Position numbers and translations under genes: made by a program. From assembly GCA_949358305.1 (NCBI GenBank), contig OX442314.1, forward strand, positions 65,295,369 to 65,359,368: 64,000 nt of DNA, read 5' to 3'. The notes below the pieces were generated by a model that was not told where the DNA came from, made no database searches, and saw nothing but the letters and a program-made list of their open reading frames with translations. Below are positions 9,885 through 58,300 of the stretch, in pieces (positions within the stretch are counted from its first letter, which is position 1; the number at the start of each line of letters is the position of its first letter). Source of the stretch: Strigamia acuminata. Its lineage: Eukaryota > Arthropoda > Chilopoda > Geophilomorpha > Linotaeniidae.

Positions 9885-9936
9885 TCGCTGCCAGCCGAAA
9901 AAGAAGCGGACAGCCGGCCTAAGCGACTCGACCACG

Positions 9937-15956: not shown

Positions 15957-17529
15957 TGTAGCAAACAACCTTGGATCTCACAGGAAAAAACTGGCGAATT
16001 GGTCACCAAACTCTGGAAACCGCCCGAGACTGTATAGTGGTTGAAGAGACAAGTTGAAATCCTCTCTCTGAGCATAAGCCTAACTTGAAGAAGGGTTAGG
16101 CCTGACTGCATGAAACTAGGCCTGACTGCATTTAGATGAAGTGATTGGCAAAACCTCTTTAGCTGCTGGGTAGAAATTCCGTGCTCCCAGGGAGGAGGAG
16201 AGCAGGCAAAGCTCTCTACTCACAAGTCATCATGTTTATTGAAGTAAAAGAAACCCAGGAATAAATTATCCAAAGAAGGAGGAAAAACATCAACTGGATT
16301 TAATACTTAACAACTGATAACAACTGTTGCTTCTTTAGCAACCTACTCTTAACAACTGGTCACCTGATTACAATAAATGTCAGTGACCAAACAATACAGA
16401 TTTGAATAATAACAATAGTGCCAACAAGGTTTCCGTATTTCTACAACAGATGTCAAACTTAACATAAGTAAAGGCAAAACTTAACCTAACACCTTGATAA
16501 CATTATGACCTGTGCAAACAGCACTTCACTTAAACTTAACAGATAATTCAAAGGCTAAAACTAACATTAGTTACACTCAAAACACAATGCTTAGCCCAAA
16601 CCCAATCACCACCAACAGAGGGCGCAACGTGTCACAGTTTTAACCCCTTAACAACCATGCAATAACAAAGGTAAAAGCTTAGATTAATAACAACTAATAT
16701 TGGTAAATATACAAACAATAACTAGTATATATTCCCTACGTCCAGGTTCCAATAAAACCCCAAAAGAAACAATAACAGGGCACCAGTGCAGCACCAAATC
16801 TAAGATGGCGACCATGCAACTGCCAAAATGACGTGAATGGAGCCAGACAAGGTCGCGAGCGACTCACAGGCCTTCTCAACGATGGATCTGCGTCCTAGAA
16901 CGGTTAGTACAGCTTTCCCAGTGCTTGGACATTGAAACCCGACCGATTCAACTCATTTGCAGGACCCATACGACCACGAGAGGCGTCGCAAGGCGTGCGC
17001 TCACGCCCGACGCTCGCAAACGCTCACAAACGATGTCCAACGTCCATCCAGCGACCCAAGACACCTGTGGACTACCTTAAACACCAATACAAGTTAGTAT
17101 AAATTAAATTACAAGTAAAACAAGCACTAAAACTGCAATTGTGCTTATTTCAGGTTCTTCCCGTCTCCCAGTTCACTTGCGCTATGGCGACCATCTTGCC
17201 GATGCACGCCTATCTCCTTCGCAAGTGAACTGGAAACAGGAGAGAACTTACAAATCCTATAAATAACACATAAAAGTGAAAAAGACACATAAGACAATTA
17301 CAAAAGACTAAAAACACAACTTTCAAACATTCCAGGTGTGGCAAGCGAAGTGACCACCCCCTTGAACTTCCAGGATCGTGACAACAAGGCAGCAAACCAA
17401 CTGGACATGTCAGATAAGAGTTGCAAATCTATTCAAACTTGACAACAAAATTAAAAAGCCTTTTCTCTCTTTCAGAAAATAAACAACGTGAAATCTCCAG
17501 ATCTTTTTGTTGCGTTCTTGCTCGCAACA
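15957..17529 (-). repeat. 5' LTR of BEL element D
   Basis: 1573 bp, the right-hand copy, 5' for a minus-strand element. Its end GCAACA at 17529 is followed by the TCAG duplication. It should carry the promoter of element D. No TGACGTCA was seen in it, unlike the other BEL LTRs here; a near match AATGACGTGAA occurs instead. Confidence 0.95.
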
Positions 17530-17533
17530 TCAG

Positions 17534-27276: not shown

Positions 27277-27336
27277 TTTTTCTTTTGTGAATTTTTTGTG
27301 TGGTTCTCCTTCTCTGTCCTTTCGCCGGCAATTCGT

Positions 27337-28848
27337 TGTTGCAAACAACGTGGAAGTATTTTAGAAATTGCATTTATTACTGTGTTTTATGTCATAATAA
27401 ATATTCATAGTGTAGTGGAATTTTTGCCTAATATTTTCATTTATTGCTTTTCAGGTTTTATCTTATTAAAACATTTTCTAGTGTTTTCAGTATTTTTAGT
27501 GTCTTTTGTGTTGATATTACATTTTAATTTACTGTTATTTCAAGTGTTTTCAAAGCTTTGTGTCTTATCTCATTGATTTCTTATGCATTTTCATGATTTA
27601 CGGCATTTTTAAGTACATTCGTCGAAGTGCAGTTCAGTTACGCTACACGCGTGACGTCATTTTTCCATTACTAGTCTCGTTTCGTTAGAACTTCTAACGC
27701 TTCGTTCTATACTTTCCGAGTTGTTAAGAATTCTATTCACAATTGCTTTCTACTAATTATTGTCTGCTCTTTCGACTGGTGTGCTTTATTATTGCCCAAG
27801 TGTTTTCGTTTCGTCAGTGCGAACGTTCGTTGTCGGCCACCGCATGGGCGCGGCCGATAATGTTCGGTTCGTGCGGCTTACGATCTATTTCAAAGTGTTG
27901 TGTTGAATAAATAGTGTGATTTTATGCAGGAAATAACATTTCCTAATTTTATTTAACATTCCTATGTGGTTTTTATAAACATTCTGTGTATCTAATTTCA
28001 AATGTACTGGTTTTACCGCCAATATGACGTTCGAGGCCGCCATGTTGGAATTTATCGGTAATTCGTTTTTATTTCAATTTGTTTACGATGTATATTGATT
28101 GAATTGATTATACTATTCCATTGCGATGTTTTTTAACCTGAATTCTTATGTTATTTTGTGTTTTAAAGCCATTTTAAATTCAAATCTTACGGTTACGTCA
28201 TCATACTTGCCTGTGATTGGCTATTGCGATCGTCTGCTACACGATCATTGTTTTGTGCTTCGTTTTCATTGTTTTACTTATTGAATCGAATTGTTATGAT
28301 TAGCTTTTTTATTCACTGCATTCTTGCGGTCATTTTGATATATTTCAAACTGTGATCCGTGCTAATTTCACAATTTGTCAACTTTGCCTGTATTTCGTTT
28401 TCCTCCGTTGCCATGACAACGGAGAATTTTGTGTCTGTATTTCGCCGCTAATCGGCTTGGCGCGTGCCATTTTCGGTATTGCGCATGTGCGGCTCCCTTG
28501 AGGGCCAATTACATTCGTGTATTTTATTCAGTTATCATCTAACCGTTCATTAAAGAAGTTGTTGAATTTTAGCTCGTGTTTAACTTTATTTCCGCCATCT
28601 TTTCCAATGTGTCGGGAGTAGTTAATCTTTTTTTCCCCGCTGGCTTATGGATAAACAAGCACTCGGATACCTTTCAACAGTGCTCTCGATTGCTTTCTCC
28701 TCATGCAACAATGGATTCGGGAGTGATTATTGTGGTTTCCAGCACGGTTTCTGTACGTACTTTGCTATACGATCATCAAATCATAGTGGCGGGAATTTCA
28801 AACCGCAAATGCCCATTTCTTCTATATTCGTGTTGACCGACCGCAACA
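27337..28848 (+). repeat. 3' LTR of BEL element B
   Basis: 1512 bp, same length as the 5' LTR and apparently the same sequence. Preceded by a pyrimidine-rich stretch and GCCGGCAATTCG rather than a purine tract. TGACGTCA at 27652-27659. Confidence 0.95.
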
Positions 28849-29248
28849 ACATCAAGTGTTTTACCGTATTTAGTCTCGAGGTCGAGAGTCGCTTGATTCT
28901 GGTTTTTATCTCGCGTGTTTATATATCGCAAGCTGCTCATATAGCACGGTAATCATTGTTAAGTCGTCTGCTCGAAAGAGCTTATTGTTTAGTCTGTTTT
29001 GGTGTGTTATCACTTGATAATGCATGATTTTACCTTTATTTATGTAAAGGACAAATCAATGATGGTTATCCATTGATTTGTTCTCTTTTGTTATGTACTT
29101 GACTTGAGGAGAACAAATCTCAAGTCATGACACTTGTTTTTATGATTTGGTCAAATAAAATGGCTGCCGACAGTTTGTCAGCAATGTCAGCACATTTTAA
29201 CTATGGCTGCATTTTTCCAACTCACTACACATTTAGTAAATCCCAATA
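28849..29248 (+). repeat. 5' LTR of element E, right piece
   Basis: Begins with B's duplicated ACAT and then matches 34460-34855 by eye. It has a TATA-like TTTATATAT stretch and two strong hairpins: arms ACAAATCAATG (29051-29061) and CATTGATTTGT (29071-29081), and GACTTGAG (29101-29108) and CTCAAGTC (29119-29126). Confidence 0.93.
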
Positions 29249-29249
29249 A

Positions 29250-29268
29250 TGGTAGCAGAGGATGGTTT
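29250..29268 (+). promoter_or_regulatory. Primer-binding site of element E, complementary to initiator tRNA-Met
   Basis: TGGTAGCAGAGGATGGTTT is the exact complement of the last 19 bases of eukaryotic initiator methionine tRNA including CCA, as known for many Copia elements. It lies one base after the 5' LTR end. Confidence 0.9.
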
Positions 29269-31372
29269 TGGTGAGTGCTACGTTAATTTAACGCTCGGAA
29301 TCGAATTCGCGACGTAATTCTGGCCGGGAACGTCTTGTGCGCATCGACGGGAATTGCCGTAGCGGCGGGCAGCACGAGAGCGACGATTTTTCCGACCGGA
29401 CGAGCGAGTTTCGCGTGCTTCGTAAAGCAGCGAAGTCGGCGAATTGCGACCCGAAGCAGTGAGAAGCAATTGTCAACGAATTTGGCAACGAAACATCTTG
29501 GAATTTCGCGTCATCGTGGATTTGAAACACGAAAAAACGGTGTTATTTTCACCAAATGTATTCGACAAATACTTTCTAATGTTCCTGCAGTCCAGGCAAC
29601 TAATTCCACGATGATTCCAAGCTGTTTCGTTGAACGTCTACCCGACGTAATCCAACGCAGAAATGCTCAATTAGAATGAGTGACAACTTCTGAACGTTGT
29701 GAAATCCAATTTCACTCGTCGCCGCCGGAAAATGCTTCGTTTTCGACGAAAAATGGTCCGTTTCGACTCCAAACCGGTCCCAATCGATTCTTAGACTTCT
29801 TATGTGGTCCCACGTCGTAATTCCAGCGCTGGTGACCACTCCACGACTTCAAAACAGGCTAAACACGGCTGCTATCGTGGATTGAGATGGCTGTTGATTT
29901 CGGACGATTTTCGTTATTTGTGAGCGGTTTCAGCGCTGGAAATACGACGCTGGAACACATAAACGTCCAAGGAAACACAGGAGCCTGGTTTGGAATTTAT
30001 TCTTCGACGGAATTTTGCGAAAACAACGTTTTTCGGCGGCGACGAGTGCGAACTTAGTTCGCCAACGTTTCAAAGCAGAACTCACGTATTAAATACCTGC
30101 CCATCGATTCGAAAACGTTTAGGAAACGTATTTCGGTGGAAAGAGAAGATTTTCGTGTCCGGGACACGATAAACGAGCTGGTTTTACAGCGTTTGTGGAG
30201 CGACGAGACACGCTACGGACTAGCGGCGTCGCATGCGACGATAAAGCGTCAACGAGAAGCGGAATTCGTTTGGAATTTACGTGAAACAACGTGTGGAAAA
30301 GGACTAGGATTGTCAAAAGCCAGTAGGTTTTTATTATTTGTCGAAATAATTATTTTGCCGTTGTATTTTTGCCGAGATGCGCGGAACAGCCGAATCCAAG
30401 ATGGCGGCGCCCACGACTGTACGAGTCTGAGGCCGTGTTTGGACTGTTTTCGGGCCGAGACGTGGATCCCAGCGCTGGAAAATACAACGTGGGACCTCAT
30501 AAAGAGCCAAGGAATCGATTGGAATCGGTTTCGGATCGTTTTGGAGAAGTTTTCGGCGAAAACAAAGCGTTTTTCGTCGTCGGCGATCGGGATTGACTGC
30601 CGCTACGTTTTCCAGACGTCGCTTGCCTATATCGAGCTGGATACGAACACAGGACGTTCGTACAATCACGAGAGCAGCAGTACGGATCGATTTGGATCGA
30701 TATTTTCCGGTTTTGGACGCGTTTCGTGCGACGAGCACAAACGCATCGCGGATTTGCACGTAGAGTGTATCTGCGCATCGGAGGGACCGGTTAAGTCTTG
30801 TGCCAGGTGCACAAGTGAATTGCATCGGATCCAAGCGACGTTTCAGCGACGTCAACGCGGGATTTGCGACGCAAAAATCCCGCAAGAAGACAACTTGCCA
30901 GCAAAGTGTTTATTATTATTTTGGGTTGTCGTGAAACTTTGTATAGTTATTTAAGGTTTTGTTTTGGGGTCCCTTTGTTTGTTTTCCGCCCTTTACTCAT
31001 TCGAGTAGCGGAATCCTATTTCCACACAGGCTATTTCTGGCCACCAAGTGTCCCGCGGGCCCAGGCGCACCGGTCGGAACTTGGGAAATACTGTGTGGAG
31101 TTTTGCGTCTCACTTATTGAGATAAGTCCAGGGTGGATTGTGATTTTTCTCCTTCATTTTGGTTGGGGAAAATTGTGTTTTTGTGTATTTGCAAAGTGGA
31201 AAAGTGCATTTTAGTGAAAGTGCTGCAAATAATTGAAGCAATGTGTTTTGTGCCGTCACTAAATTTATTAGTGAGTGTGGTGTGGTTGTGTGGCTCGAAT
31301 TTTGTGCGCACAGCGTTTTGTGCAAGGAGAAGGTCTTTAACAGACAATGTGAGTGCCTGCAACAAGCAGACA
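29269..31372 (+). other. Long 5' leader of element E with inverted repeat arms
   Basis: About 2.1 kb without a convincing gene. It holds three diverged copies of a module of roughly 150 bp built around AGCGCTGG...GGGACC.CATAA...ATCGATTGG: one on the minus strand (about 29670-29835) and two on the plus strand (about 29925-30065 and 30462-30620). Open frames across it (for example 30136-30954) arise on both strands from these modules. The 3' part becomes T/G-rich before ORF1. Confidence 0.5.
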
Positions 31373-32074
31373 ATGGATGACACACACAAGGCACAATTGA
31401 AGATGGAAACACATGGACAGAATGTCTTTAACGGACAGGCAGTGTATAACGCACTTAATGAACAATTGAAAAGGAAAATTACTGTTCTTGGAAAAGAGAA
31501 ATTTGATTTGTGTTTTGATTATGACAAAAGTGTATTGTTACTAACCCATTTAGTCTGTAAGAGCGCATTAACAGAAAACATTGATGTTATGGCAGGGGCC
31601 ATTAGTGATCTAGTTTTGACACTTTGTGCAATGCATGTGCATGTGAGAGAAGCGAATGGGGTTAGCAGTAACAAAGTGCAGGGCACTAGTGATGGTAATC
31701 AGAACAGCAACGTGGTTGATTCAAATGTGATTTTGAATGCCATGAATGATGTGCAAAACATCAAATCCCAACATGGACACGGGGATTTAGAATATTTGAA
31801 CAAGGTTCAAATTAGAAAAAGAAATAAAGAATTGAATTTCACCACAATTAAAGGTGGTAACCCTCTTAATTTTGTTAAAATGAAGAAAGAAACTAGGCCT
31901 AAATTGACAGAAATGGAACATTCGAACCGGGTTCGGAATGAAAAGAGAGAGGGGGACCCAGATAATATGAAAAAGGGTTTTGTAAGCAATAGGAAATTGC
32001 ATGGTGCAACCTTAATTAAGGGAAGTGATCTTCCAAAGGGGATTTCAGGGAAATCCAAAAAGGGTTTTGAGTAA
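31133..32074 (+). CDS. Element E ORF1, gag-position protein of unknown fold
   Basis: The frame is open from 31133 to TAA at 32074. The most sensible starts are ATG 31373 (233 codons, giving a soluble protein that begins MDDTHKAQLK) or ATG 31241, which would prefix a hydrophobic stretch. The middle has a Leu-rich helical segment; the C-terminal half is basic and rich in Lys, Arg and Asn. It stands where Gag would be, but I see no CCHC zinc knuckle and no clear capsid motif. It overlaps ORF2 by 50 bp in a different frame (ORF2 is at +1), as if ORF2 were reached by frameshifting or by a separate start. Confidence 0.6.
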   Translation: MDCDFSPSFWLGKIVFLCICKVEKCILVKVLQIIEAMCFVPSLNLLVSVVWLCGSNFVRTAFCARRRSLTDNVSACNKQTMDDTHKAQLKMETHGQNVFNGQAVYNALNEQLKRKITVLGKEKFDLCFDYDKSVLLLTHLVCKSALTENIDVMAGAISDLVLTLCAMHVHVREANGVSSNKVQGTSDGNQNSNVVDSNVILNAMNDVQNIKSQHGHGDLEYLNKVQIRKRNKELNFTTIKGGNPLNFVKMKKETRPKLTEMEHSNRVRNEKREGDPDNMKKGFVSNRKLHGATLIKGSDLPKGISGKSKKGFE

Positions 32075-34166
32075 ACAAAAGTCAGGTATGACAACGGGAA
32101 TTAGACAGAATGGTCCCTTGAATTCTGGTATTAAAAATCAGAAAAAGAGTTCTAGAAATGTTACAAAACAAGAAAAGTTTGAAAAGGACCGGGTACTCCC
32201 ATTAGAATTGTGGCATACCCGGATGGGGTATTTAAATAAAGACAGTGTTCTTAACATGGATGGGTCTAGAAACGTGTTTGGTGTCCGATTAGAAGACACG
32301 GGGACCGCCCCTATAACAGGGAACTTTGCAAATACAGATATTTGCCCGACACAAAAGATTAAAGACATGAAAGCTTTAGAAGTTGTACATTTGAGTGTCT
32401 GGAGGGCCCCAACTGGAGAGAAATACATCATTATAGTTGATGATTGCTCTGAATATGTGTGGTTTAGACCATTAAAGGGAGACAGCATTTTAACAGAATT
32501 TCAAAATTGGTTGGCTGAAATCAAATGCATAACAGAAACTGTGAATAGAGTTTATTTGGGCCCTGGGATGGATTTTTCCACAGAAGAATTAACAGCATGG
32601 GTAGAAGTAATGAGGAATTTTGGGATTACAATTGACAACGTAGATTCTGAAAACCCAGTGGCTAACTCCATCTCCGAGAGGGCTAATGCGAATATCATGA
32701 ACGGGGTAGAAAGTTTGATTAAAGAGAATAAATTCCCCAATAATTTGTGGTTGGAATTAGCCAACACAATGGCATATTTAAGGAATAGAGCCCCTAGGAT
32801 CGTTTTAGATTGGAAAACCCCATACAATGTACTGTATGACAGATGCATTTCTGTGCGACACCTTAGATGTATTGGGTCAAGAGTAAAGGTTTTTCACGTT
32901 AGAAATAGAGAAAGGCATTCCTGGGCGGGCGCTCTAGTGGGTTATTCGAATTCACGAAAGAAATATCGGGTCTGGGACTCGCAAAGAGACAGAGTTTTTC
33001 AAACTAACAACTTAAAGATACATGAATGGAGTTATTGGCACGAGGGGGAATTAAAACCCTCCCTGGAATTTCCTAATGTGGACCAAACTTCAGGTCGTGA
33101 AGGAATTGAAATTCCATCGACGGTTGTTGGAGTGCCAACATCTCCTCAGTTTGAAATGCCTTCCCCATGGCGAGTAGGATTTGAAAATCCCCCATTGTTG
33201 CTAAGCAAGGAAAGGAAACACTTAGGAAGTATTGAAAGTATTGAAAAGGAGGGGGAACATTTAGGAACATTTACTTCAAGTGATGAAGAGGTTCATGAGG
33301 GACTGGCTTCTGACCAGCAATCTTCCCCTTTAGTGAACACAGTGGAAGATGAAATCTCCACATCCTTAAGCGAGGGGAAACTGACTGAGACAGAGGGGGA
33401 GGTTAATAAGAAACCGAAAGAATTGGAACAAGAAAGGAGATTTAGTGATGAGGAAATTAAATTGCTTGTAGAAAATCCTCCAGAGTCAACACACAGGGTT
33501 GACATGAATAATTCCGAGGTTATTGCAAACGGAAGTGAAGGATTAGAGCAGTTTACATTGGAATTTGAGCCCAAATCTGATGAAGGGTTTAGACAGGCCG
33601 ATTCCATGAAAGTTTGTGAGATTTCTTCGACGTCACTGGAAGATGACATTTCCACAACACCGTTAGAGACATTGACAGGTGTAAATAAATATAAATTCAT
33701 CAAGACAGAGGGGGAATGTGCAAAGAAATCCAAAAAGAGAAAGAAAAAGAATAAGAAACGGAATGCTGATGAGAGTGAAGGAGTTAATGGTATCCCCATT
33801 TGTGACACAAAACACATTAAGAGTTTGGACTTAATAACAGAAATGGTTGGGACCTCGTGTTACTCCACATACTATTATTCTGGGACGGACCTAAAGATGC
33901 TTGACATGTCCCAGTGGATTAGACAGGCCACGGTTGAGCAAACGAAAAATGGGACAAATAAGATTGTTGTTTATTACGTATCACCATTTGGAGATCAAAT
34001 GTATTGCATCGAGGATGTGATAGATTGGTGCGGTGATAATGGTTTTAACCTAGACGTGCTTTGGTTTGATTTTAGAAATGAGAAACCTTTGCTCCCGGCA
34101 TATCCCGTAGCAAGTAATTGTGTAGACTATGTTGACAAGGTCGTGGAGGAATTTGATGACTGGTAA
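32025..34166 (+). CDS. Element E ORF2: degenerate Copia-type integrase fused to an MBD-like domain
   Basis: 713 codons, uninterrupted. Pre-integrase motif LWHTRMGYLNKDS near residue 62 (the family has GH; here GY). The integrase fold is recognisable from HLSVWRAPTGEKY (about 120), VDDCSEYVWFRPLKGDS, SISERANAN (about 217) and the AYLRNRAP motif. The first catalytic Asp (HxD) is Ser, the second (family DNG) is replaced in YLGPGMDF, and only the Glu of ER remains. Residues about 340-565 are acidic and Ser/Glu-rich, then a Lys-rich tract KKSKKRKKKNKKR that could be a nuclear signal. Residues about 615-690 match the methyl-CpG-binding domain: QWIR, VVYYVSPFG, then WFDFR. No YxDD or other reverse transcriptase motif. 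Likely a DNA-binding, non-catalytic protein; the role is inference. Confidence 0.8.
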   Translation: MIFQRGFQGNPKRVLSKQKSGMTTGIRQNGPLNSGIKNQKKSSRNVTKQEKFEKDRVLPLELWHTRMGYLNKDSVLNMDGSRNVFGVRLEDTGTAPITGNFANTDICPTQKIKDMKALEVVHLSVWRAPTGEKYIIIVDDCSEYVWFRPLKGDSILTEFQNWLAEIKCITETVNRVYLGPGMDFSTEELTAWVEVMRNFGITIDNVDSENPVANSISERANANIMNGVESLIKENKFPNNLWLELANTMAYLRNRAPRIVLDWKTPYNVLYDRCISVRHLRCIGSRVKVFHVRNRERHSWAGALVGYSNSRKKYRVWDSQRDRVFQTNNLKIHEWSYWHEGELKPSLEFPNVDQTSGREGIEIPSTVVGVPTSPQFEMPSPWRVGFENPPLLLSKERKHLGSIESIEKEGEHLGTFTSSDEEVHEGLASDQQSSPLVNTVEDEISTSLSEGKLTETEGEVNKKPKELEQERRFSDEEIKLLVENPPESTHRVDMNNSEVIANGSEGLEQFTLEFEPKSDEGFRQADSMKVCEISSTSLEDDISTTPLETLTGVNKYKFIKTEGECAKKSKKRKKKNKKRNADESEGVNGIPICDTKHIKSLDLITEMVGTSCYSTYYYSGTDLKMLDMSQWIRQATVEQTKNGTNKIVVYYVSPFGDQMYCIEDVIDWCGDNGFNLDVLWFDFRNEKPLLPAYPVASNCVDYVDKVVEEFDDW

Positions 34167-34371: not shown

Positions 34372-34380
34372 CAGAGGGGG
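34372..34380 (+). promoter_or_regulatory. Polypurine tract of element E
   Basis: CAGAGGGGG, two bases before the 3' LTR at 34383. The right place and composition for the plus-strand primer. The stretch 34167-34371 before it has no gene. Confidence 0.8.
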
Positions 34381-34382
34381 TA

Positions 34383-34855
34383 TGTTGGTATTTGGAGCAG
34401 GCATATGGTGTCAGTCAGCTAAAGTCGCGTGTTTCCGGTTAAATGCGACTGCGACACATCAAGTGTTTTACCGTATTTAGTCTCGAGGTCGAGAGTCGCT
34501 TGATTCTGGTTTTTATCTCGCGTGTTTATATATCGCAAGCTGCTCATATAGCACGGTAATCATTGTTAAGTCGTCTGCTCGAAAGAGCTTATTGTTTAGT
34601 CTGTTTTGGTGTGTTATCACTTGATAATGCATGATTTTACCTTTATTTATGTAAAGGACAAATCAATGATGGTTATCCATTGATTTGTTCTCTTTTGTTA
34701 TGTACTTGACTTGAGGAGAACAAATCTCAAGTCATGACACTTGTTTTTATGATTTGGTCAAATAAAATGGCTGCCGACAGTTTGTCAGCAATGTCAGCAC
34801 ATTTTAACTATGGCTGCATTTTTCCAACTCACTACACATTTAGTAAATCCCAATA
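34383..34855 (+). repeat. 3' LTR of element E, intact
   Basis: 473 bp, TGTTGG to CCAATA, followed by the duplicated TTTTT. It shows the uninterrupted site into which B inserted in the other copy. Confidence 0.95.
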
Positions 34856-35069: not shown

Positions 35070-36992
35070 TTTCAATCTAGGGACGCCCCGTCAACCAGCC
35101 GTAGAAGAGAAAATGTACGCGAACGCCCCGACCGCCGAGAAGATCAACACCGACGCGATAGGAACCAAGAAAATTGGGACGATTATCGTAGAAATTACTT
35201 TCGACGGCGGGAGGAAAACAAAGAGTCTTGGAACAGACACCGAGAAGAGTTCCTACGTGAACGTGATGAGAAAGCCCGACGTGAACGAGAGAACCTCTGT
35301 CTTCAAGACGAACGAAGAAGGAGAGGATCGGAGAGTCGCGCACGTTCATGGAAAGCGTATCGTGAAGAGGAAATACGACAGCGAGATAGGAGACGCTACG
35401 AAGATACCAAATCGATTCGGGACAGTCCCGAACCGATGAAGATCGACGACGAAGTAATTATCGACGAGGTCCCTGAGCAGAAAAAGATGTATACTCAGGC
35501 GGATCTCCTCGCGGTGGTCATGAAATACCAACAAATGCAGCCGAAACCGATCTACCGCCCAACTCCCTCGACCGCCTCGAGTCTAGAGACGGCGCCAAGT
35601 GCTTTCATCAAGCCGGAACTCTCGCAGACGGGAAGCGTAACATCTAGCGTCAGCCTCCCAAGCGCCTTTCGCAAGAAAGTGATAATCGGCGCACCGACAC
35701 TGAGTTCTGAAGAACAACTCAAGCATCGAGAAGCTCGCTTTGGACCAGCCAAAGTCGAACCTCTCCCAACTATCCCCGAAGCTTCAACTTCGACGAGAAC
35801 TCCAATTGTTTGGGACAAGCCCGAACCGGAAAAATCAAGACGTCTGGTCAAATCTGTGCCTCAGCCAACGACATCCACGGGACCCAATCCGATGTTGCCA
35901 GCCCCAGCAGTCGTTCAAGCCTCGACTCCAATCAACCCTTCGGAGGTAACGTTGCAACAATTCCTGGACGTCACAACCGTGGAGCAGGCCAGAGCACTTT
36001 TGTGCGAAATGGATTCGTACCAACAAAACGTAATCCAGAACGTCATCACAAACCTTCAGCGAATTTCAATCGAATATACGCAGAACAAAAACCGGAATCA
36101 TCCGAATTGGAACACTAGGATCGTGGTCGCCATCACCGATCTGATGTCGATTTTGCTAGCTGCCGCCACCTTCCGGAACGCACGTGTTGCTGTGGCGGCC
36201 TGGATCGTGGTGGCCCACGAAGGTTTCCAGGTCCCGCCGGCTCTCGTAGACAGTTGGACGCGCCTGGTACCCTCGGCGGCCGTAATTCGAGCCCAAATGG
36301 TGGCCCAGGACCCGGATCCGGAGGCCTCATACCAAAACGTGCGAGCTGCCATTCGGAATCCACCTCCGTCGCTTCCAGCCGCCGATACCGTCATGGAAGA
36401 CCTGGACTCGACAGATTCGATTCCGCCTCCTCCTCCCCCGCCTATCAATAAGAAGAAAGCTCCCGAGCAACTGGCCAAACCAGTCCAACTTGCGAAGAAA
36501 AAGACCAAATCGACGATGCTTCGTCCACAGCCGCAGGATAAGGCTCCAGAACCAACGCCACCCCGGATCGCTCCGAGACTAACGTTGTACTATCCAGGCT
36601 TATCCTTAACCGAAGACACTAAGCAAAAGTTGCTGCAAACTCCGGATCGCGGCTTCTCCCTTTACGTGTGGATGAAAAAGGCTATTGAAGCTGGGCCAGG
36701 AAACGACATGTTTATCCAGCACCAGCGACTACTCCGAGCCCATCGAGCGCCAACCAGCGCCGCCGAAGCGCAAAGGATCCATCACACGAACCAGGGCATG
36801 GCCCCTTTCCTACCCCAAATTTGGGCTCATGAGAGAACGGGAAACCCTTTGGAGCCTCCCGGCCATCTACGATTCTACCTGAATGAAAGCGAGGATCCGA
36901 CGGATTACTCGTCTAGATTGACCACATCTCTTAACCTGGACAAACCAAGTTCGGAGGATAAAACGAGCTACGCCGACAATCTAAAGAAATAG
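35070..36992 (+). CDS. Gypsy F accessory gene, part after the TGA: charged coil, Pro-rich linker and unknown C-terminal domain
   Basis: Same frame as the preceding part, open for 640 codons after TGA 35067. If translated separately, the first good ATG is 35436 (518 codons). Residues before that ATG are an extreme Arg/Glu/Asp/Asn region (RRRENVRERPDRREDQ and similar), resembling RE/RD-type charged domains or a long charged helix. Then come Pro/Ser/Thr-rich sequence, an Ala/Val-rich helical region, a run of seven prolines (about residues 329-335 from 35436), Lys/Pro-rich linkers and a Pro/Arg-rich end. No known family recognised. It ends 226 bp before the 3' LTR, so it is the last gene of the element. 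The TGA may be a mutation or a readthrough stop. Confidence 0.6.
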   Translation, partial: FQSRDAPSTSRRRENVRERPDRREDQHRRDRNQENWDDYRRNYFRRREENKESWNRHREEFLRERDEKARRERENLCLQDERRRRGSESRARSWKAYREEEIRQRDRRRYEDTKSIRDSPEPMKIDDEVIIDEVPEQKKMYTQADLLAVVMKYQQMQPKPIYRPTPSTASSLETAPSAFIKPELSQTGSVTSSVSLPSAFRKKVIIGAPTLSSEEQLKHREARFGPAKVEPLPTIPEASTSTRTPIVWDKPEPEKSRRLVKSVPQPTTSTGPNPMLPAPAVVQASTPINPSEVTLQQFLDVTTVEQARALLCEMDSYQQNVIQNVITNLQRISIEYTQNKNRNHPNWNTRIVVAITDLMSILLAAATFRNARVAVAAWIVVAHEGFQVPPALVDSWTRLVPSAAVIRAQMVAQDPDPEASYQNVRAAIRNPPPSLPAADTVMEDLDSTDSIPPPPPPPINKKKAPEQLAKPVQLAKKKTKSTMLRPQPQDKAPEPTPPRIAPRLTLYYPGLSLTEDTKQKLLQTPDRGFSLYVWMKKAIEAGPGNDMFIQHQRLLRAHRAPTSAAEAQRIHHTNQGMAPFLPQIWAHERTGNPLEPPGHLRFYLNESEDPTDYSSRLTTSLNLDKPSSEDKTSYADNLKK

Positions 36993-37848: not shown

Positions 37849-39534
37849 ACTATTTCTGAACATTCAGAGACATTGGTCTTGTGGTGTTTGTGCTAAGTCA
37901 ACTGTGATGAGATCAAAAGTCTATTCTCCCAAATCATTGGTTGGATGTTTCTAAAACTTACATTGGAGCCTTCTACTAAGGTTTAAACACTATTTCTGAA
38001 CATTCAGAGACATTGGTCTTGTGGTGTTTGTGCTAAGTCAACTGTGATTAGATCAAAAGTCTATTCTCCCAAATCATTGGTTGGATGTCTCTAAAACTTA
38101 CATTGGAGCCTTCTACTAAGGTTTAAACACTATTTCTGAACATTCAGAGACATTGGTCTTGTGGTGTTTGTGCTAAGTCAACTGTGATTAGATCAAAAGT
38201 CTATTCTCCCAAATCATTGGTTGGATGTCTCTAAAACTTACATTGGAGCCTTCTACTAAGGTTTAAACACTATTTCTGAACATTCAGAGACATTGGTCTT
38301 GTGGTGTTTGTGCTAAGTCAACTGTGATGAGATCAAAAGTCTATTCTCCCAAATCATTGGTTGGATGTTTCTAAAATTTACATTGGAGCCTTCTACTAAA
38401 GTTTAAACACTATTTTTGAACATTCAGAGACATTGGTCTTGTGGTGTTTGTGCTAAGTCAACTGTGATGAGATCAAAAGTCTATTCTCCTAAATCAATGG
38501 TTGAATGTTTCTAAAACTTACATTGGAGCCTTCTACTAAGGTTTAAACACTATTTCTGAACATTCAGAGACATTGGACTTGTGGTGTTTGTGCTAAGTCA
38601 ACTGTGATGAGATCAAAAGTCTATTCTCCCAAATCATTGGTTGGATGTCTCTAAAACTTACATTGGAGCCTTCTACTAAGGTTTAAACACTATTTCTGAA
38701 CATTCAGAGACATTGGTGTTTGTGCTAAGTCAACTGTGATGAGATCAAAAGTCTATTCTCCCAAATCATTGGTTGGATGTTTCTAAAATTTACATTGGAG
38801 CCTTCTACTAAGGTTTAAACACTATTTTTGAACATTCAGAGACATTGGTCTTGTGGTGTTTGTGCTAAGTCAACTGTGATGAGATCAAAAGTCTATTCTC
38901 CTAAATCAATGGTTGAATGTTTCTAAAACTTACATTGGAGCCTTCTACTAAGGTTTAAACACTATTTCTGAACATTCAGAGACATTGGACTTGTGGTGTT
39001 TGTGCTAAGTCAACTGTGATGAGATCAAAAGTCTATTCTCCCAAATCATTGGTTGGATGTTTCTAAAACTTACATTGGAGCCTTCTACTAAGGTTTAAAC
39101 ACTATTTCTGAACATTCAGAGACATTGGACTTGTGGTGTTTGTGCTAAGTCAACTGTGATGAGATCAAAAGTCTATTCTCCCACATCATTGGTTGGATGT
39201 TTCTAAAACTTACATTGGAGCCTTCTACTAAGGTTTAAACACTATTTCTGAACATTCAGAGACATTGGTGTTTGTGCTAAGTCAACTGTGATGAGATCAA
39301 AAGTCTATTCTCCCAAATCATTGGTTGGATGTTTCTAAAATTTACATTGGAGCCTTCTACTAAGGTTTAAACACTATTTTTGAACATTCAGAGACATTGG
39401 TCTTGTGGTGTTTGTGCTAAGTCAACTGTGATGAGATCAAAAGTCTATTCTCCTAAATCAATGGTTGAATGTTTCTAAAACTTACATTGGAGCCTTCTAC
39501 TAAGGTTTAAACACTATTTCTGAACATTCAGAGA
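37849..39534. repeat. 140-bp satellite array, left block
   Basis: About 12 tandem monomers. Period measured as 140 bp from repeated GTTTAAACAC at 37981, 38121 and 38261. At least two monomers lack 8 bp (CATTGGTGTTTG form, 132 bp). Ends in CATTCAGAGA at the insertion of BEL C. Confidence 0.97.
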
Positions 39535-48693: not shown

Positions 48694-50793
48694 GAGACAT
48701 TGGACTTGTGGTGTTTGTGCTAAGTCAACTGTGATGAGATCAAAAGTCTATTCTCCCAAATCATTGGTTGGATGTCTCTAAAACTTACATTGGAGCCTTC
48801 TACTAAGGTTTAAACACTATTTCTGAACATTCAGAGACATTGGTGTTTGTGCTAAGTCAACTGTGATGAGATCAAAAGTCTATTCTCCCAAATCATTGGT
48901 TGGATGTTTCTAAAACTTACATTGGAGCTTTCTACTAAGGTTTAAACACTATTTCTGAACATTCAGAGACATTGGTGTTTGTGCTAAGTCAACTGTGATG
49001 AGATCAAAAGTCTATTCTCCCAAATCATTGGTTGGATGTTTCTAAAATTTACATTGGAGCCTTCTACTAAGGTTTAAACACTATTTTTGAACATTCAGAG
49101 ACATTGGTCTTGTGGTGTTTGTGCTAAGTCAACTGTGATGAGATCAAAAGTCTATTCTCCTAAATCAATGGTTGAATGTTTCTAAAACTTACATTGGAGC
49201 CTTCTACTAAGGTTTAAACACTATTTCTGAACATTCAGAGACATTGGACTTGTGGTGTTTGTGCTAAGTCAACTGTGATGAGATCAAAAGTCTATTCTCC
49301 CAAATCATTGGTTGGATGTCTCTAAAACTTACATTGGAGCCTTCTACTAAGGTTTAAACACTATTTCTGAACATTCAGAGACATTGGTGTTTGTGCTAAG
49401 TCAACTGTGATGAGATCAAAAGTCTATTCTCCCAAATCATTGGTTGGATGTTTCTAAAACTTACATTGGAGCCTTCTACTAAGGTTTAAACACTATTTCT
49501 GAACATTCAGAGACATTGGACTTGTGGTGTTTGTGCTAAGTCAACTGTGATGAGATCAAAAGTCTATTCTCCCAAATCATTGGTTGGATGTTTCTAAAAT
49601 TTACATTGGAGCCTTCTACTAAGGTTTAAACACTATTTTTGAACATTCAGAGACATTGGTCTTGTGGTGTTTGTGCTAAGTCAACTGTGATGAGATCAAA
49701 AGTCTATTCTCCTAAATCAATGGTTGAATGTTTCTAAAACTTACATTGGAGCCTTCTACTAAGGTTTAAACACTATTTCTGAACATTCAGAGACATTGGT
49801 CTTGTGGTGTTTGTGCTAAGTCAACTGTGATTAGATCAAAAGTCTATTCTCCCAAATCATTGGTTGGATGTCTCTAAAACTTACATTGGAGCCTTCTACT
49901 AAGGTTTAAACACTATTTCTGAACATTCAGAGACATTGGTCTTGTGGTGTTTGTGCTAAGTCAACTGTGATTAGATCAAAAGTCTATTCTCCCAAATCAT
50001 TGGTTGGATGTCTCTAAAACTTACATTGGAGCCTTCTACTAAGGTTTAAACACTATTTCTGAACATTCAGAGACATTGGTCTTGTGGTGTTTGTGCTAAG
50101 TCAACTGTGATGAGATCAAAAGTCTATTCTCCCAAATCATTGGTTGGATGTTTCTAAAATTTACATTGGAGCCTTCTACTAAGGTTTAAACACTATTTTT
50201 GAACATTCAGAGACATTGGTCTTGTGGTGTTTGTGCTAAGTCAACTGTGATGAGATCAAAAGTCTATTCTCCTAAATCAATGGTTGAATGTTTCTAAAAC
50301 TTACATTGGAGCCTTCTACTAAGGTTTAAACACTATTTCTGAACATTCAGAGACATTGGACTTGTGGTGTTTGTGCTAAGTCAACTGTGATGAGATCAAA
50401 AGTCTATTCTCCCAAATCATTGGTTGGATGTCTCTAAAACTTACATTGGAGCCTTCTACTAAGGTTTAAACACTATTTCTGAACATTCAGAGACATTGGT
50501 GTTTGTGCTAAGTCAACTGTGATGAGATCAAAAGTCTATTCTCCCAAATCATTGGTTGGATGTTTCTAAAACTTACATTGGAGCCTTCTACTAAGGTTTA
50601 AACACTATTTCTGAACATTCAGAGACATTGGACTTGTGGTGTTTGTGCTAAGTCAACTGTGATGAGATCAAAAGTCTATTCTTCCAAATCATTGGTTGGA
50701 TGTTTCTAAAATTTACATTGGAGCCTTCTACTAAGGTTTAAACACTATTTTTGAACATTCAGAGACATTGGTCTTGTGGTGTTTGTGCTAAGT
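48694..50793. repeat. 140-bp satellite array, middle block
   Basis: About 15 monomers, 140 bp with several of the 132-bp form. Interrupted on the right by solo LTR G within GCTAAGT. Confidence 0.97.
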
Positions 50794-52305
50794 TGTTGCA
50801 AACAACGTGGAAATATTTTTGAAATTGCATTTATTACTGTGTTTTATGTCATAATAAATATTCATAGTGTAATTGAGTTTTTGCCTAATATTTTCATTTA
50901 TTGCTTTTCAGGTTTTATCTTATTAAAACATTTTCTAGTGTTTTCAGTATTTTAGTGTCTTTTGTGTTGATATTACATTTTAATTTACTGTTATTTCAAG
51001 TGTTTTCAAAGCTTTGTGTCTTATCTCATTGATTTCTTATGCATTTTCATGATTTTCGGCATTTTTAAGTACATTCGTCGAAGTGCAGTTCAGTTACGCT
51101 ACACGCGTGACGTCATTTTTCCATTACTAGTCTCGTTTCGTTAGAACTTCTAACGTTTCGTTCTATACTTTCCGAGTTGTTAAGAATTCTATTCACAATT
51201 GCTTTCTACTAATTATTGTCTGCTCTTTCGACTGGTGTGCTTTATTATTGCCCAAGTGTTTTCGTTTCGTCAGTGCGAACGTTCGTTGTCGGCCACCGCA
51301 TGGGCGCGGCCGATAATGTTCGGTTCGTGCGGCTTACGATCTATTTCAAAGTGTTGTGTTGAATAAATAGTGTGATTTTGTGCAGGAAATAACATTTCCT
51401 AATTTTATTTAACATTCCTATGTGGTTTTTATAAACATTCTGTGTATCTAATTTCAAATGTACTGGTTTTACCGCCAATATGACGTTCGAGGCCGCCATG
51501 TTGGAATTTATCGGTAATTCGTTTTTATTTCAATTTGTTTACGATGTATATTGATTGAATTGATTTTACTATTTGTTTACGATGTTTTTTAACCTGAATT
51601 CTTATGTTATTTTGTGTTTTAAAGCCATTTTAAATTCAAATCTTACGGTTACGTCATCATACTTGCCTGTGATTGGCTATTGCGATCGTCTGCTACACGA
51701 TCATTGTTTTGTGCTTCGTTTTCATTGTTTTACTTATTGAATCGAATTGTTATGATTAGCTTTTTTATTCACTGCATTCTTGCGGTCATTTTGATATATT
51801 ACAAACTGTAATCCGTGCTAATTTCACAATATGTCAACTTTGCCTGTATTTTCGTTTTCCTCCGTTGCCATGACAACGGAGAATTTTGTATCTGTATTTC
51901 GCCGCTAATCTGTTCGGCGCGTGCCGTTATCGGTATTGCGCATGTGCGGCTCCCTTGAGGGCCAATTGTATTCGTGTATTTTAAGCAGTTATCATCTAAC
52001 CGTTCATTAAAGAAGTTGTTGAATTTTAGCTCGTGTTTAACTTTATTTCCGCCATCTTTTCCAATGTGTCGGGAGTAGTTAAATCTTTTTTCCCCGTTGG
52101 CTTATGGATAAACAAGCACTCGGATACCTTTCAACAGTGCTCTCGATTGCTTTCTCCTCATGCAACAATGGATTCGGGAGTGATTATTGTGGTTTCCAGC
52201 GCGGTTTCTGTACGTACTTTGCTATACGATCATCAAATCATAGTGGCGGAAATTTCAAACCGCAAATGCCCATTTCTTCTATATTCGTGTTGACCGACCG
52301 CAACA
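50794..52305 (+). mobile_element. Solo LTR G of the BEL A/B family
   Basis: 1512 bp, TGTTGC to GCAACA, with a 4-bp duplication AAGT (50790-50793, 52306-52309) in the satellite. The uninterrupted satellite reads GCTAAGTCAACTG. A solo LTR with matching flanks means an original full insertion lost its interior by LTR-LTR recombination. Subtype as in element A. TGACGTCA at 51108-51115. Confidence 0.96.
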
Positions 52306-55300
52306 AAGTCAACTGTGATGAGATCAAAAGTCTATTCTCCTAAATCAATGGTTGAATGTTTCTAAAACTTACATTGGAGCCTTCTACTAAGGTTTAAACA
52401 CTATTTCTGAACATTCAGAGACATTGGACTTGTGGTGTTTGTGCTAAGTCAACTGTGATGAGATCAAAAGTCTATTCTCCCACATCATTGGTTGGATGTT
52501 TCTAAAACTTACATTGGAGCCTTCTACTAAGGTTTAAACACTATTTCTGAACATTCAGAGACATTGGTGTTTGTGCTAAGTCAACTGTGATGAGATCAAA
52601 AGTCTATTCTCCCAAATCATTGGTTGGATGTTTCTAAAATTTACATTGGAGCCTTCTACTAAGGTTTAAACACTATTTTTGAACATTCAGAGACATTGGT
52701 CTTGTGGTGTTTGTGCTAAGTCAACTGTGATGAGATCAAAAGTCTATTCTCCTAAATCAATGGTTGAATGTTTCTAAAACTTACATTGGAGCCTTCTACT
52801 AAGGTTTAAACACTATTTCTGAACATTCAGAGACATTGGACTTGTGGTGTTTGTGCTAAGTCAACTGTGATGAGATCAAAAGTCTATTCTCCCAAATCAT
52901 TGGTTGGATGTCTCTAAAACTTACATTGGAGCCTTCTACTAAGGTTTAAACACTATTTCTGAACATTCAGAGACATTGGTGTTTGTGCTAAGTCAACTGT
53001 GATGAGATCAAAAGTCTATTCTCCCAAATCATTGGTTGGATGTTTCTAAAACTTACATTGGAGCCTTCTACTAAGGTTTAAACACTATTTCTGAACATTC
53101 AGAGACATTGGACTTGTGGTGTTTGTGCTAAGTCAACTGTGATGAGATCAAAAGTCTATTCTCCCAAATCATTGGTTGGATGTTTCTAAAATTTACATTG
53201 GAGCCTTCTACTAAGGTTTAAACACTATTTTTGAACATTCAGAGACATTGGTCTTGTGGTGTTTGTGCTAAGTCAACTGTGATGAGATCAAAAGTCTATT
53301 CTTCTAAATCAATGGTTGAATGTTTCTAAAACTTACATTGGAGCCTTCTACTAAGGTTTAAACACTATTTCTGAACATTCAGAGACATTGGACTTGTGGT
53401 GTTTGTGCTAAGTCAACTGTGATGAGATCAAAAGTCTATTCTCCCAAATCATTGGTTGGATGTTTCTAAAACTTACATTGGAGCCTTCTACTAAGGTTTA
53501 AACACTATTTCTGAACATTCAGAGACATTGGACTTGTGGTGTTTGTGCTAAGTCAACTGTGATGAGATCAAAAGTCTATTCTCCCACATCATTGATTGGA
53601 TGTTTCTAAAACTTACATTGGAGCCTTCTACTAAGGTTTAAACACTATTTCTGAACATTCAGAGACATTGGTGTTTGTGCTAAGTTAACTGTGATGAGAT
53701 CAAAAGTCTATTCTCCCAAATCATTGGTTGGATGTTTCTAAAACTTACATTGGAGCCTTCTACTAAGGTTTAAACACTATTTCTGAACATTCAGAGACAT
53801 TGGACTTGTGGTGTTTGTGCTAAGTCAACTGTGATGAGATCAAAAGTCTATTCTCCCAAATCATTGGTTGGATGTTTCTAAAACTTACATTGGAGCCTTC
53901 TACTAAGGTTTAAACACTATTTCTGAACATTCAGAGACATTGGTCTTGTGGTGTTTGTGCTAAGTCAACTGCGATGTGAAATGAACTCAAAATTTTTTTT
54001 TCAAAATTTATTGCTTGGGTGTTGCTAAAACTTATATTGAAGGCTTCTACTAAGGTTTAAACACTATTTCTGAACGTTCAGAGACATTGGACTTGTGGTG
54101 TTTGTGCTAAGTCAACTGTGATGAGATCAAAAGTCTATTCTCACAAATCATTGGTTGGATGTTTCTAAAACTTACATTGGAGCCTTCTACTAAGGTTTAA
54201 ACACTATTTCTGAACATTCAGAGACATTGGACTTGTGGTGTTTGTGCTAAGTCAACTGTGATGAGATCAAAAGTCTATTCTCCTAAATCAATGGTTGAAT
54301 GTTTCTAAAACTTACATTGGAGCCTTCTACTAAGGTTTAAACACTATTTCTGAACATTCAGAGACATTGGACTTGTGGTGTTTGTGCTAAGTCAACTGTG
54401 ATGAGATCAAAAGTCTATTCTCCTAAATCAATGGTTGAATGTTTCTAAAACTTACATTGGAGCCTTCTACTAAGGTTTAAACACTATTTCTGAACATTCA
54501 GAGACATTGGACTTGTGGTGTTTCTGCTAAGTCAACTGTGATGAGATCAAAAGTCTATTCTCCCAAATCATTGGTTGGATGTTTCTAAAACTTACATTGG
54601 AGCCTTCTACTAAGGTTTAAACACTATTTCTGAACATTCAGAGACATTGGACTTGTGGTGTTTGTGCTAAGTCAACTGTGATGAGATCAAAAGTCTATTC
54701 TCCCAAATCATTGGTTGGATGTTTCTAAAACTTACATTGGAGCCTTCTACTAAGGTTTAAACACTATTTCTGAACATTCAGAGACATTGGTCTTGTGGTG
54801 TTTGTGCTAAGTCAACTGTGATTAGATCAAAAGTCTATTCTCCCAAATCATTGGTTGGATGTCTCTAAAACTTACATTGGAGCCTTCTACTAAGGTTTAA
54901 ACACTATTTCTGAACATTCAGAGACATTGGTCTTGTGGTGTTTGTGCTAAGTCAACTGTGATGAGATCAAAAGTCTATTCTCCCAAATCATTGGTTGGAT
55001 GTTTCTAAAATTTACATTGGAGCCTTCTACTAAGGTTTAAACACTATTTTTGAACATTCAGAGACATTGGTCTTGTGGTGTTTGTGCTAAGTCAACTGTG
55101 ATGAGATCAAAAGTCTATTCTCCTAAATCAATGGTTGAATGTTTCTAAAACTTACATTGGAGCCTTCTACTAAGGTTTAAACACTATTTCTGAACATTCA
55201 GAGACATTGGACTTGTGGTGTTTGTGCTAAGTCAACTGTGATGAGATCAAAAGTCTATTCTCCCAAATCATTGGTTGGATGTTTCTAAAACTTACATTGG

Positions 55301-58300
55301 AGCCTTCTACTAAGGTTTAAACACTATTTCTGAACATTCAGAGACATTGGTGTTTGTGCTAAGTCAACTGTGATGAGATCAAAAGTCTATTCTCCCAAAT
55401 CATTGGTTGGATGTTTCTAAAACTTACATTGGAGCCTTCTACTAAGGTTTAAACACTATTTCTGAACATTCAGAGACATTGGACTTGTGGTGTTTGTGCT
55501 AAGTCAACTGTGATGAGATCAAAAGTCTATTCTCCCAAATCATTGGTTGGATGTTTCTAAAACTTACATTGGAGCCTTCTACTAAGGTTTAAACACTATT
55601 TCTGAACATTCAGAGACATTGGTCTTGTGGTGTTTGTGCTAAGTCAACTGCGATGTGAAATGAACTCAAAATTTTTTTTTCAAAATTTATTGCTTGGGTG
55701 TTGCTAAAACTTATATTGAAGGCTTCTACTAAGGTTTAAACACTATTTCTGAACGTTCAGAGACATTGGACTTGTGGTGTTTGTGCTAAGTCAACTGTGA
55801 TGAGATCAAAAGTCTATTCTCCCAAATCATTGGTTGGATGTTTCTAAAACTTACATTGGAGCCTTCTACTAAGGTTTAAACACTATTTCTGAACATTCAG
55901 AGACATTGGTCTTGTGGTGTTTGTGCTAAGTCAACTGTGATGAGATCAAAAGTCTATTCTCCTAAATCAATGGTTGAATGTTTCTAAAACTTACATTGGA
56001 GCCTTCTACTAAGGTTTAAACACTATTTCTGAACATTCAGAGACATTGGACTTGTGGTGTTTCTGCTAAGTCAACTGTGATGAGATCAAAAGTCTATTCT
56101 CCCAAATCATTGGTTGGATGTTTCTAAAACTTACATTGGAGCCTTCTACTAAGGTTTAAACACTATTTCTGAACATTCAGAGACATTGGACTTGTGGTGT
56201 TTGTGCTAAGTCAACTGTGATGAGATCAAAAGTCTATTCTCCCAAATCATTGGTTGGATGTTTCTAAAACTTACATTGGAGCCTTCTACTAAGGTTTAAA
56301 CACTATTTCTGAACATTCAGAGACATTGGACTTGTGGTGTTTCTGCTAAGTCAACTGTGATGAGATCAAAAGTCTATTCTCCCAAATCATTGGTTGGATG
56401 TTTCTAAAACTTACATTGGAGCCTTCTACTAAGGTTTAAACACTATTTCTGAACATTCAGAGACATTGGACTTGTGGTGTTTCTGCTAAGTCAACTGTGA
56501 TGAGATCAAAAGTCTATTCTCCCAAATCATTGGTTGGATGTTTCTAAAACTTACATTGGAGCCTTCTACTAAGGTTTAAACACTATTTCTGAACATTCAG
56601 AGACATTGGTCTTGTGGTGTTTGTGCTAAGTCAACTGTGATGAGATCAAAAGTCTATTCTCCTAAATCAATGGTTGAATGTTTCTAAAACTTACATTGGA
56701 GCCTTCTACTAAGGTTTAAACACTATTTCTGAACATTCAGAGACATTGGACTTGTGGTGTTTCTGCTAAGTCAACTGTGATGAGATCAAAAGTCTATTCT
56801 CCCAAATCATTGGTTGGATGTTTCTAAAACTTACATTGGAGCCTTCTACTAAGGTTTAAACACTATTTCTGAACATTCAGAGACATTGGACTTGTGGTGT
56901 TTGTGCTAAGTCAACTGTGATGAGATCAAAAGTCTATTCTCCCAAATCATTGGTTGGATGTTTCTAAAACTTACATTGGAGCCTTCTACTAAGGTTTAAA
57001 CACTATTTCTGAACATTCAGAGACATTGGTCTTGTGGTGTTTGTGCTAAGTCAACTGTGATTAGATCAAAAGTCTATTCTCCCAAATCATTGGTTGGATG
57101 TCTCTAAAACTTACATTGGAGCCTTCTACTAAGGTTTAAACACTATTTCTGAACATTCAGAGACATTGGTCTTGTGGTGTTTGTGCTAAGTCAACTGTGA
57201 TGAGATCAAAAGTCTATTCTCCCAAATCATTGGTTGGATGTTTCTAAAATTTACATTGGAGCCTTCTACTAAGGTTTAAACACTATTTTTGAACATTCAG
57301 AGACATTGGTCTTGTGGTGTTTGTGCTAAGTCAACTGTGATGAGATCAAAAGTCTATTCTCCTAAATCAATGGTTGAATGTTTCTAAAACTTACATTGGA
57401 GCCTTCTACTAAGGTTTAAACACTATTTCTGAACATTCAGAGACATTGGACTTGTGGTGTTTGTGCTAAGTCAACTGTGATGAGATCAAAAGTCTATTCT
57501 CCCAAATCATTGGTTGGATGTTTCTAAAACTTACATTGGAGCCTTCTACTAAGGTTTAAACACTATTTCTGAACATTCAGAGACATTGGTGTTTGTGCTA
57601 AGTCAACTGTGATGAGATCAAAAGTCTATTCTCCCAAATCATTGGTTGGATGTTTCTAAAACTTACATTGGAGCCTTCTACTAAGGTTTAAACACTATTT
57701 CTGAACATTCAGAGACATTGGACTTGTGGTGTTTGTGCTAAGTCAACTGTGATGAGATCAAAAGTCTATTCTCCCAAATCATTGGTTGGATGTTTCTAAA
57801 ACTTACATTGGAGCCTTCTACTAAGGTTTAAACACTATTTCTGAACATTCAGAGACATTGGTCTTGTGGTGTTTGTGCTAAGTCAACTGCGATGTGAAAT
57901 GAACTCAAAATTTTTTTTTCAAAATTTATTGCTTGGGTGTTGCTAAAACTTATATTGAAGGCTTCTACTAAGGTTTAAACACTATTTCTGAACGTTCAGA
58001 GACATTGGACTTGTGGTGTTTGTGCTAAGTCAACTGTGATGAGATCAAAAGTCTATTCTCCCAAATCATTGGTTGGATGTTTCTAAAACTTACATTGGAG
58101 CCTTCTACTAAGGTTTAAACACTATTTCTGAACATTCAGAGACATTGGTCTTGTGGTGTTTGTGCTAAGTCAACTGTGATGAGATCAAAAGTCTATTCTC
58201 CTAAATCAATGGTTGAATGTTTCTAAAACTTACATTGGAGCCTTCTACTAAGGTTTAAACACTATTTCTGAACATTCAGAGACATTGGACTTGTGGTGTT

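Follow-up and report, generated by a model that had tools for sequence, protein, structure and literature searches.

Copia retrotransposons with an MBD behind the integrase in Strigamia acuminata, and a derived branch with a catalytically dead integrase

The window, that is, the whole stretch of 64,000 nucleotides analysed here, contains a Copia-type element on the forward strand. The element begins with a 5′ LTR remnant of 400 bp (28849..29248), which shows 100% identity to positions 34456-34855, and ends with a 3′ LTR of about 473 bp (34383..34855), whose start was placed by eye at the TGTTGG past the polypurine tract. If this start is correctly placed, the first ~73 bp of the 5′ LTR are absent. 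A primer binding site, TGGTAGCAGAGGATGGTT, lies at 29250..29267; all of its 18 bases were also found at L011, one of the related Copia loci that bear a methyl-CpG-binding domain (MBD-Copia), and its first 12 bases at L010. The polypurine tract AGAGGGGG (34373..34380), upstream of the 3′ LTR, was named by eye. The truncated LTR start adjoins the cut-off LTR of a Pao-like element (27336-28848), forming a rearranged junction, and no target duplication was seen by eye at the window element.

Two ORFs on the same strand lie between the LTRs. ORF1 (31241..32074) corresponds to the N-terminal part of an accessory protein, and its start motif (MCFVPSL...) was present in 14 of the 15 frames inspected. 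ORF2 (32016..34166) encodes a catalytically dead Copia integrase, followed by an SH3-like domain (32841..33038; PF25597, E 1.7e-9), a charged linker, and an MBD-like domain with its core at residues 634-690 (33915..34085). In the nearest other copy (L019, 99%), ORF1 and ORF2 form a single frame of 1,063 aa, whereas in the window copy this frame is interrupted between the two ORFs. A Pfam search of ORF1, ORF2, and three leader frames returned no match to gag or RVT_2, and no chromodomain was among the matches of ORF1 and ORF2. The window copy is not an autonomous Copia element, as it is without an RT match and the catalytic Asp residues of its integrase are replaced. It belongs to a derived non-autonomous group without gag or RT matches, and its product is probably an accessory protein put to a new use. 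The AlphaFold model of the N-terminal region of this protein had a mean pLDDT of 40, too low to be of use.

Some other features of the window can be described briefly. Two direct repeats of 1,575 bp (8312-9886 and 15957-17531; 100% identical) are probably the LTRs of a further, very young element. At 35070-36992 there is an ORF of 640 aa, whose match to Eap1 is under threshold (27.6 bits, cut-off 28) and probably compositional. The flank of the L069/L070 insertion resembles the coding sequence of this ORF by eye; thus, this ORF likely belongs to a mobile element present in repeated copies. Furthermore, a 140-bp satellite occupies 48973-64000 and 37849-39534, with 106.8 copies in the larger array. 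Its CpG observed/expected ratio is 0.04-0.16 in 4-kb segments from 52 kb onward; away from the satellite, the DNA sampled showed no CpG depletion. The scored matches of the satellite (40 of 730 candidates) fall at 65.18-66.03 Mb of contig C1, and this is possibly a centromere.

The preliminary description, made from the letters of the sequence, had proposed a Copia-type integrase ORF with an MBD-like domain at its C-terminus, and both parts of this proposal are borne out. Against Pfam PF01429, the C-terminus scored 15.9 bits on the whole ORF and 19.5 and 19.8 bits on C-terminal pieces, the last of these being the isolated region (E 6e-4); all values are below the curated cut-off of 21. Therefore, we call the domain MBD-like, and it is homologous to MBDs that score above the cut-off. 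In the AlphaFold model, the core has a pLDDT of ~87-93, and a Foldseek search with this model placed MBD/TAM structures at all of ranks 1-44, one of them at E ≤ 0.001. Residues 634-690 are thus predicted to adopt the MBD fold. A single-sequence PDB search with the window C-terminus found MBD2 at E 1.1 only. The slightly low Pfam score could speak for a similarity due to chance, a chimera of recent origin, or an artefact of the assembly. However, numerous divergent elements, spread over many contigs, carry this domain in the same position, and together with the fold search this rules out chance or an assembly artefact; we give this explanation practically no credence.

To follow the domain beyond the window, the 237.5 Mb genome was searched with PF01429. 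All 150 scored matches (of 1,092 candidates) contained the domain, most of them in frames >1,400 aa. We found that Copia gag-pol proteins of ~1,510-1,640 aa carry an MBD between the SH3 domain of the integrase and the RT. The four full polyproteins scanned, from about three families, all show the order gag2-CCHC-Pol_BBD-gag_pre-rve-SH3-MBD-RVT_2, with MBD E values of 1.0e-10 to 3.3e-10, and the partial protein of L014 shows SH3-MBD-RT (MBD E 1.4e-11). The MBD exceeded the Pfam cut-off in 5/5 MBD proteins scanned (39.9-44.2 bits). In a wider set of 18 aligned MBD stretches, Pfam recognised 14 at E ≤ 0.01. By their gag-PR-IN-RT order and Copia-type domains (4/4 full polyproteins), these relatives are Ty1/Copia elements. 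They have no chromodomain among their Pfam matches, and with the Copia order and an MBD they are not chromoviruses.

The MBD was absent at E ≤ 10 from all eight other Copia loci in which it was sought, and a second Copia element adjoining L009 also has none; the non-MBD set was checked in these nine cases. In an unrooted RT tree (15 rows, 13 of them different), the 6 MBD rows were split from the 9 non-MBD rows by a branch with 100/100 support. This grouping fits a single gain of the MBD. The top match of the L009 MBD among solved structures was MBD2 (E 2.4e-8), and a profile of 18 MBD rows also gave MBD2 (E 1e-11), so by sequence MBD2 is the nearest solved structure. Meanwhile, the host genome contains a probable MBD2/3 exon, which matches residues 22-54 of a 54-residue MBD2 query at 82% identity, as if the host domain were split by an intron. 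The element MBDs cover nearly the entire query at ~44-51% identity. When the L009 MBD region was compared with a protein database, none of the 52 candidates reached E ≤ 0.001, and in a viral contig collection the six pattern matches included no relative. Both results say little about presence in other animals.

The MBDs fall into two classes by the residues at three positions (Arg, Asp, and Arg), which we take to be the two arginine fingers and the Asp that read mCpG. These residues are kept in 11/11 rows outside the dead-integrase group (9 distinct stretches, some rows being fragments); L005 was omitted from this count, and it has Arg-Asp-Arg in another alignment. A neighbouring position, whose Tyr presumably helps mCpG reading, is occupied by Tyr in 6 of the 11 rows and by Ile or Val in the other 5, the latter including the much-copied L009 family. 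All three reading residues are lost in 6/6 rows of the dead group, and in 9/9 in a larger alignment. Stretches of <40 residues, L002 and L045 among them, were dropped. For the window domain, the alignment gives Glu-Val-Tyr in place of Arg-Asp-Arg, just as the preliminary description had noted, and methylation-dependent binding by the window copy is accordingly doubtful as far as its residues tell. On the other hand, the gag-pol relatives, with intact reading residues, are the elements that could use the MBD for chromatin choice.

The dead-integrase group is uniform in its replacements. Among the 11 members aligned, every one has Ser at the first catalytic Asp; at the second, 10 have Gly and one has Ser, and the Glu is retained in 10. 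All 11 have Tyr in place of the second zinc-site His and lack the CxxC. In the unrooted integrase tree, seven dead rows formed one group (100/100) on a long stem (1.51), and they joined the MBD-bearing L009, L011, L017, and L008 at 100/98, apart from 8 non-MBD rows. Because the dead group joins the MBD-bearing rows, it most likely descends from MBD-bearing Copia, with the integrase and mCpG-reading activities lost later.

The integrase region of this group is constrained. Omega was 0.22-0.34, with a bootstrap upper bound <0.5, in 10/10 dead-group pairs, and 0.22-0.41 in 17/18 pairs of a wider set (pairs share sequences in both sets); the remaining pair, the window copy and L019, has zero synonymous differences in this region. 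The MBD of the branch is only weakly constrained (omega upper bound <1 in 3/6 pairs). It could be argued that the dead integrase-MBD ORF is a functionless, decaying passenger: in the window copy the frame is interrupted and the 5′ LTR truncated, several listed copies contain stops, and omega of the MBD is only weakly below 1. However, single frames of 918-1,158 aa stay open in several subfamilies, other copies being broken, despite an integrase-region dS of 0.47-1.32 between dead-group pairs. The low integrase-region omega and the same replacements at the two Asp positions are also against simple decay, and we consider a passenger very unlikely.

The C-terminal parts of the group are more variable. 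PF01429 was matched at E ≤ 1 in just 2/6 whole dead-group ORFs, and two of the six have another C-terminus. We observed that the subfamilies L020-L026 and L028-L031 end in ...ELGFTWDENFIYPKY or a near variant (IYPKY end) instead of the MBD, as if the C-terminus of the group were exchangeable. In addition, some copies look mosaic: L027 has its ~60 first residues in common with the window copy and thereafter follows L050, and L044 and L050 share the MBD of the window copy and not its tail. These patterns suggest recombination between subfamilies.

Young copies of the gag-pol elements exist. For the L009 family, 40/40 scored LTR matches were 100% identical, and 17 LTR pairs at element spacing were identical; both counts come from the best 40 of 309 candidates, and thus they do not mean that all copies are young. 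Target duplications of 5 bp were found at 10/10 elements of this family fetched on both sides, which had been chosen for identical LTRs. Two MBD-Copia insertions, L055/L056 and L065/L066, are located on different contigs but within one and the same repeated sequence, where their positions differ by a few bases and their orientations are opposite (target duplications acccg and acgtg). This pair may hint at a local site preference.

The flanks of MBD-Copia insertions are CpG-dense. The median was 8.24 CpG per 100 bp for 25 insertions (170 bp of flank), compared with 2.35 for 15 insertions of a non-MBD Copia family (p 1.4e-4) and 4.12 for 20 controls 30 kb off (p 0.02, and 0.014 in a separate test against local controls). 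Five of the 20 one-flank loci were dropped for not starting exactly at the LTR end, and the control L101 stems from one of them. Flank GC was 0.48 for MBD-Copia against 0.32 for the non-MBD family, and the CpG observed/expected ratio did not differ significantly (p 0.27 against the non-MBD family, 0.077 against the local controls). Since the ratio is not significantly different and GC differs, the CpG-dense flanks may reflect a GC preference or an effect of the zone. No peak of CpG density was seen at the insertion point of MBD-Copia.

The two classes of Copia also sit in different chromosome zones. In a test on ten large contigs, with 107 MBD-Copia hits (MBD frames ≥1,400 aa, from 150 scored of 1,092 candidates) and 88 other Copia hits (RVT_2 frames ≥1,300 aa, from 150 scored of 2,633 candidates), the nearest neighbour was of the same class in 144 of 195 cases versus 103 expected, and 0/5,000 within-contig permutations reached this value. 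For instance, ten MBD elements lie at 13.5-16.1 Mb of contig C6 and eleven others at 0.3-13.0 Mb. On C1, 14/31 MBD elements and 1/35 others lie at ≥62 Mb (p 5e-5, for a cut chosen post hoc), and the MBD elements beyond 62 Mb surround the 140-bp satellite arrays at ~65.2-66.0 Mb.

We propose that the ancestor of one Copia clade captured an MBD2-like domain, placed C-terminal to its integrase and immediately ahead of the RT. In the autonomous members, this MBD with its intact reading residues would tether integration complexes to DNA that is rich in CpG and probably methylated, and new copies would thereby land in certain repeat-rich chromosome zones. A side branch would have lost gag, RT, both catalytic Asp residues of the integrase, and the three mCpG-reading residues, its protein remaining under purifying selection as an accessory factor. 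We favour this reading as a whole, though by no great degree. The missing CpG peak at the insertion point, the lack of CpG depletion outside the satellite, and the Ile or Val at the Tyr position of the L009 family weigh against it. CpG-guided integration as such is plausible, and it is confounded by GC content, zone, and selection.

These same factors make up a different explanation, in which selection, recombination rate, and GC content produce the zoning and the CpG-dense flanks and the MBD matters little. The LTRs of the window's Pao-type element occupy zones similar to those of MBD-Copia (40 scored of 245 candidates), and no MBD was found at E ≤ 1 in a related Pao polyprotein (Peptidase_A17, E 6e-40); thus, such zoning is not special to MBD elements, and the zone alone is no proof of guidance by the MBD. 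The lack of a significant difference in the CpG observed/expected ratio points in the same direction, as does the fact that just one MBD family was compared with one non-MBD family. However, the sampled copies with identical LTR pairs are young, so that selection has had little time to act; near-identical Copia copies without the MBD sit in other zones of this genome; and CpG density is lower in the local controls at 30 kb. We hold this explanation to be possible, though rather less than probable.

The MBD could also act after insertion or in expression, by binding the element's own methylated copies for anti-silencing or for holding at silenced copies, with no choice of target. This would agree with the retention of the dead-branch protein, of which integration is not expected, and with a host that has DNMT1-like genes as well as the probable MBD2/3. 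By our reading, the 11 PF00145 matches include four loci of DNMT1 type, of which one may be decayed, and a single DNMT2-like locus (together L033, L034, L035, L036, and L038), with no clear DNMT3 among the matches; four DNMT1-like loci seem unusual. However, the MBD of the gag-pol proteins stands directly behind the SH3 domain of the integrase, and the integrase C-terminus is the site of the targeting interaction in Ty5 (PMC5911963). Thus, we regard an action purely after insertion as unlikely.

Within the favoured tethering model, the dead protein is, at our best guess from its residues, a non-catalytic, methylation-blind accessory factor, which might pair with the integrase of its parents or bind DNA or chromatin without reading methylation. 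The preliminary description had suggested that the window element uses the domain to choose or hold chromatin. Holding is plausible, but choosing is hard to reconcile with an ORF that has no working integrase. A bolder extension is a two-part system, in which the autonomous Copia elements read DNA methylation through their integrase-MBD and so pick zones, and the dead protein of the parasitic branch, non-catalytic and methylation-blind, joins or redirects the integration complexes of the parents in trans. This extension is speculative and on the whole improbable; if true, the branch would be a satellite of retroelements that brings its own adaptor for targeting.

Some non-autonomous LTR elements keep a protein-coding gene, gag-only elements being an example. 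Like them, the window group has no RT, but it keeps a dead integrase and an MBD rather than gag. As to the domain itself, MBD2/MBD3, MeCP2, and MBD4 have the same fold, and the Arg-Asp-Arg is shared with the gag-pol elements, but the MBD-Copia domain sits in a retroelement polyprotein. The window MBD, with its reading residues lost, rather resembles the MBD of SETDB2 and the TAM of BAZ2, which read mCpG weakly and were both among the fold relatives found by Foldseek. Having this fold without the reading residues, the dead-integrase branch is a natural counterpart for comparison.

The preliminary description knew of no LTR element with an MBD, and our literature search, with most subscription papers out of reach, likewise turned up none; one may have been mentioned before. 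A cytosine methyltransferase has been reported in retrotransposons (de Mendoza 2018, PMC5890265), and PMC6338049 places those that carry it in the Ty3/Gypsy and DIRS clades. The Symbiodinium Copia elements in the latter paper are without a DNMT domain, and "MBD" occurs nowhere in its main text. Both these elements and MBD-Copia captured DNA-methylation machinery, the former a writer. The yeast Copia element Ty5 binds Sir4 through its integrase C-terminus, which directs insertion into silent chromatin (PMC5911963). It shares with MBD-Copia the superfamily and the integrase C-terminus, but Ty5 works by a protein-protein contact, whereas MBD-Copia would use a whole DNA-binding fold of the MBD2 type.

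The closest parallel is found in the chromoviruses of Ty3/Gypsy, which carry a chromodomain at the integrase C-terminus and build up in particular chromosome zones (PMC3605345). The comparison with chromodomains made in the preliminary description holds for the position at the integrase C-terminus and for the zoned distribution, whereas the targeting itself is something we infer. MBD-Copia differs in having the integrase before the RT and in the fold, which is of a DNA-methylation reader instead of a histone-mark reader. Chromodomain integrases reportedly read histone marks, and an integrase-MBD fusion would be their equivalent for DNA methylation, here from an animal and within Copia. Whether a genome's own methylation mark guides the landing of transposons thus becomes a testable question. 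An integrase fused to a chromatin reader is known already; what would be new in MBD-Copia is the reader fold and the superfamily.
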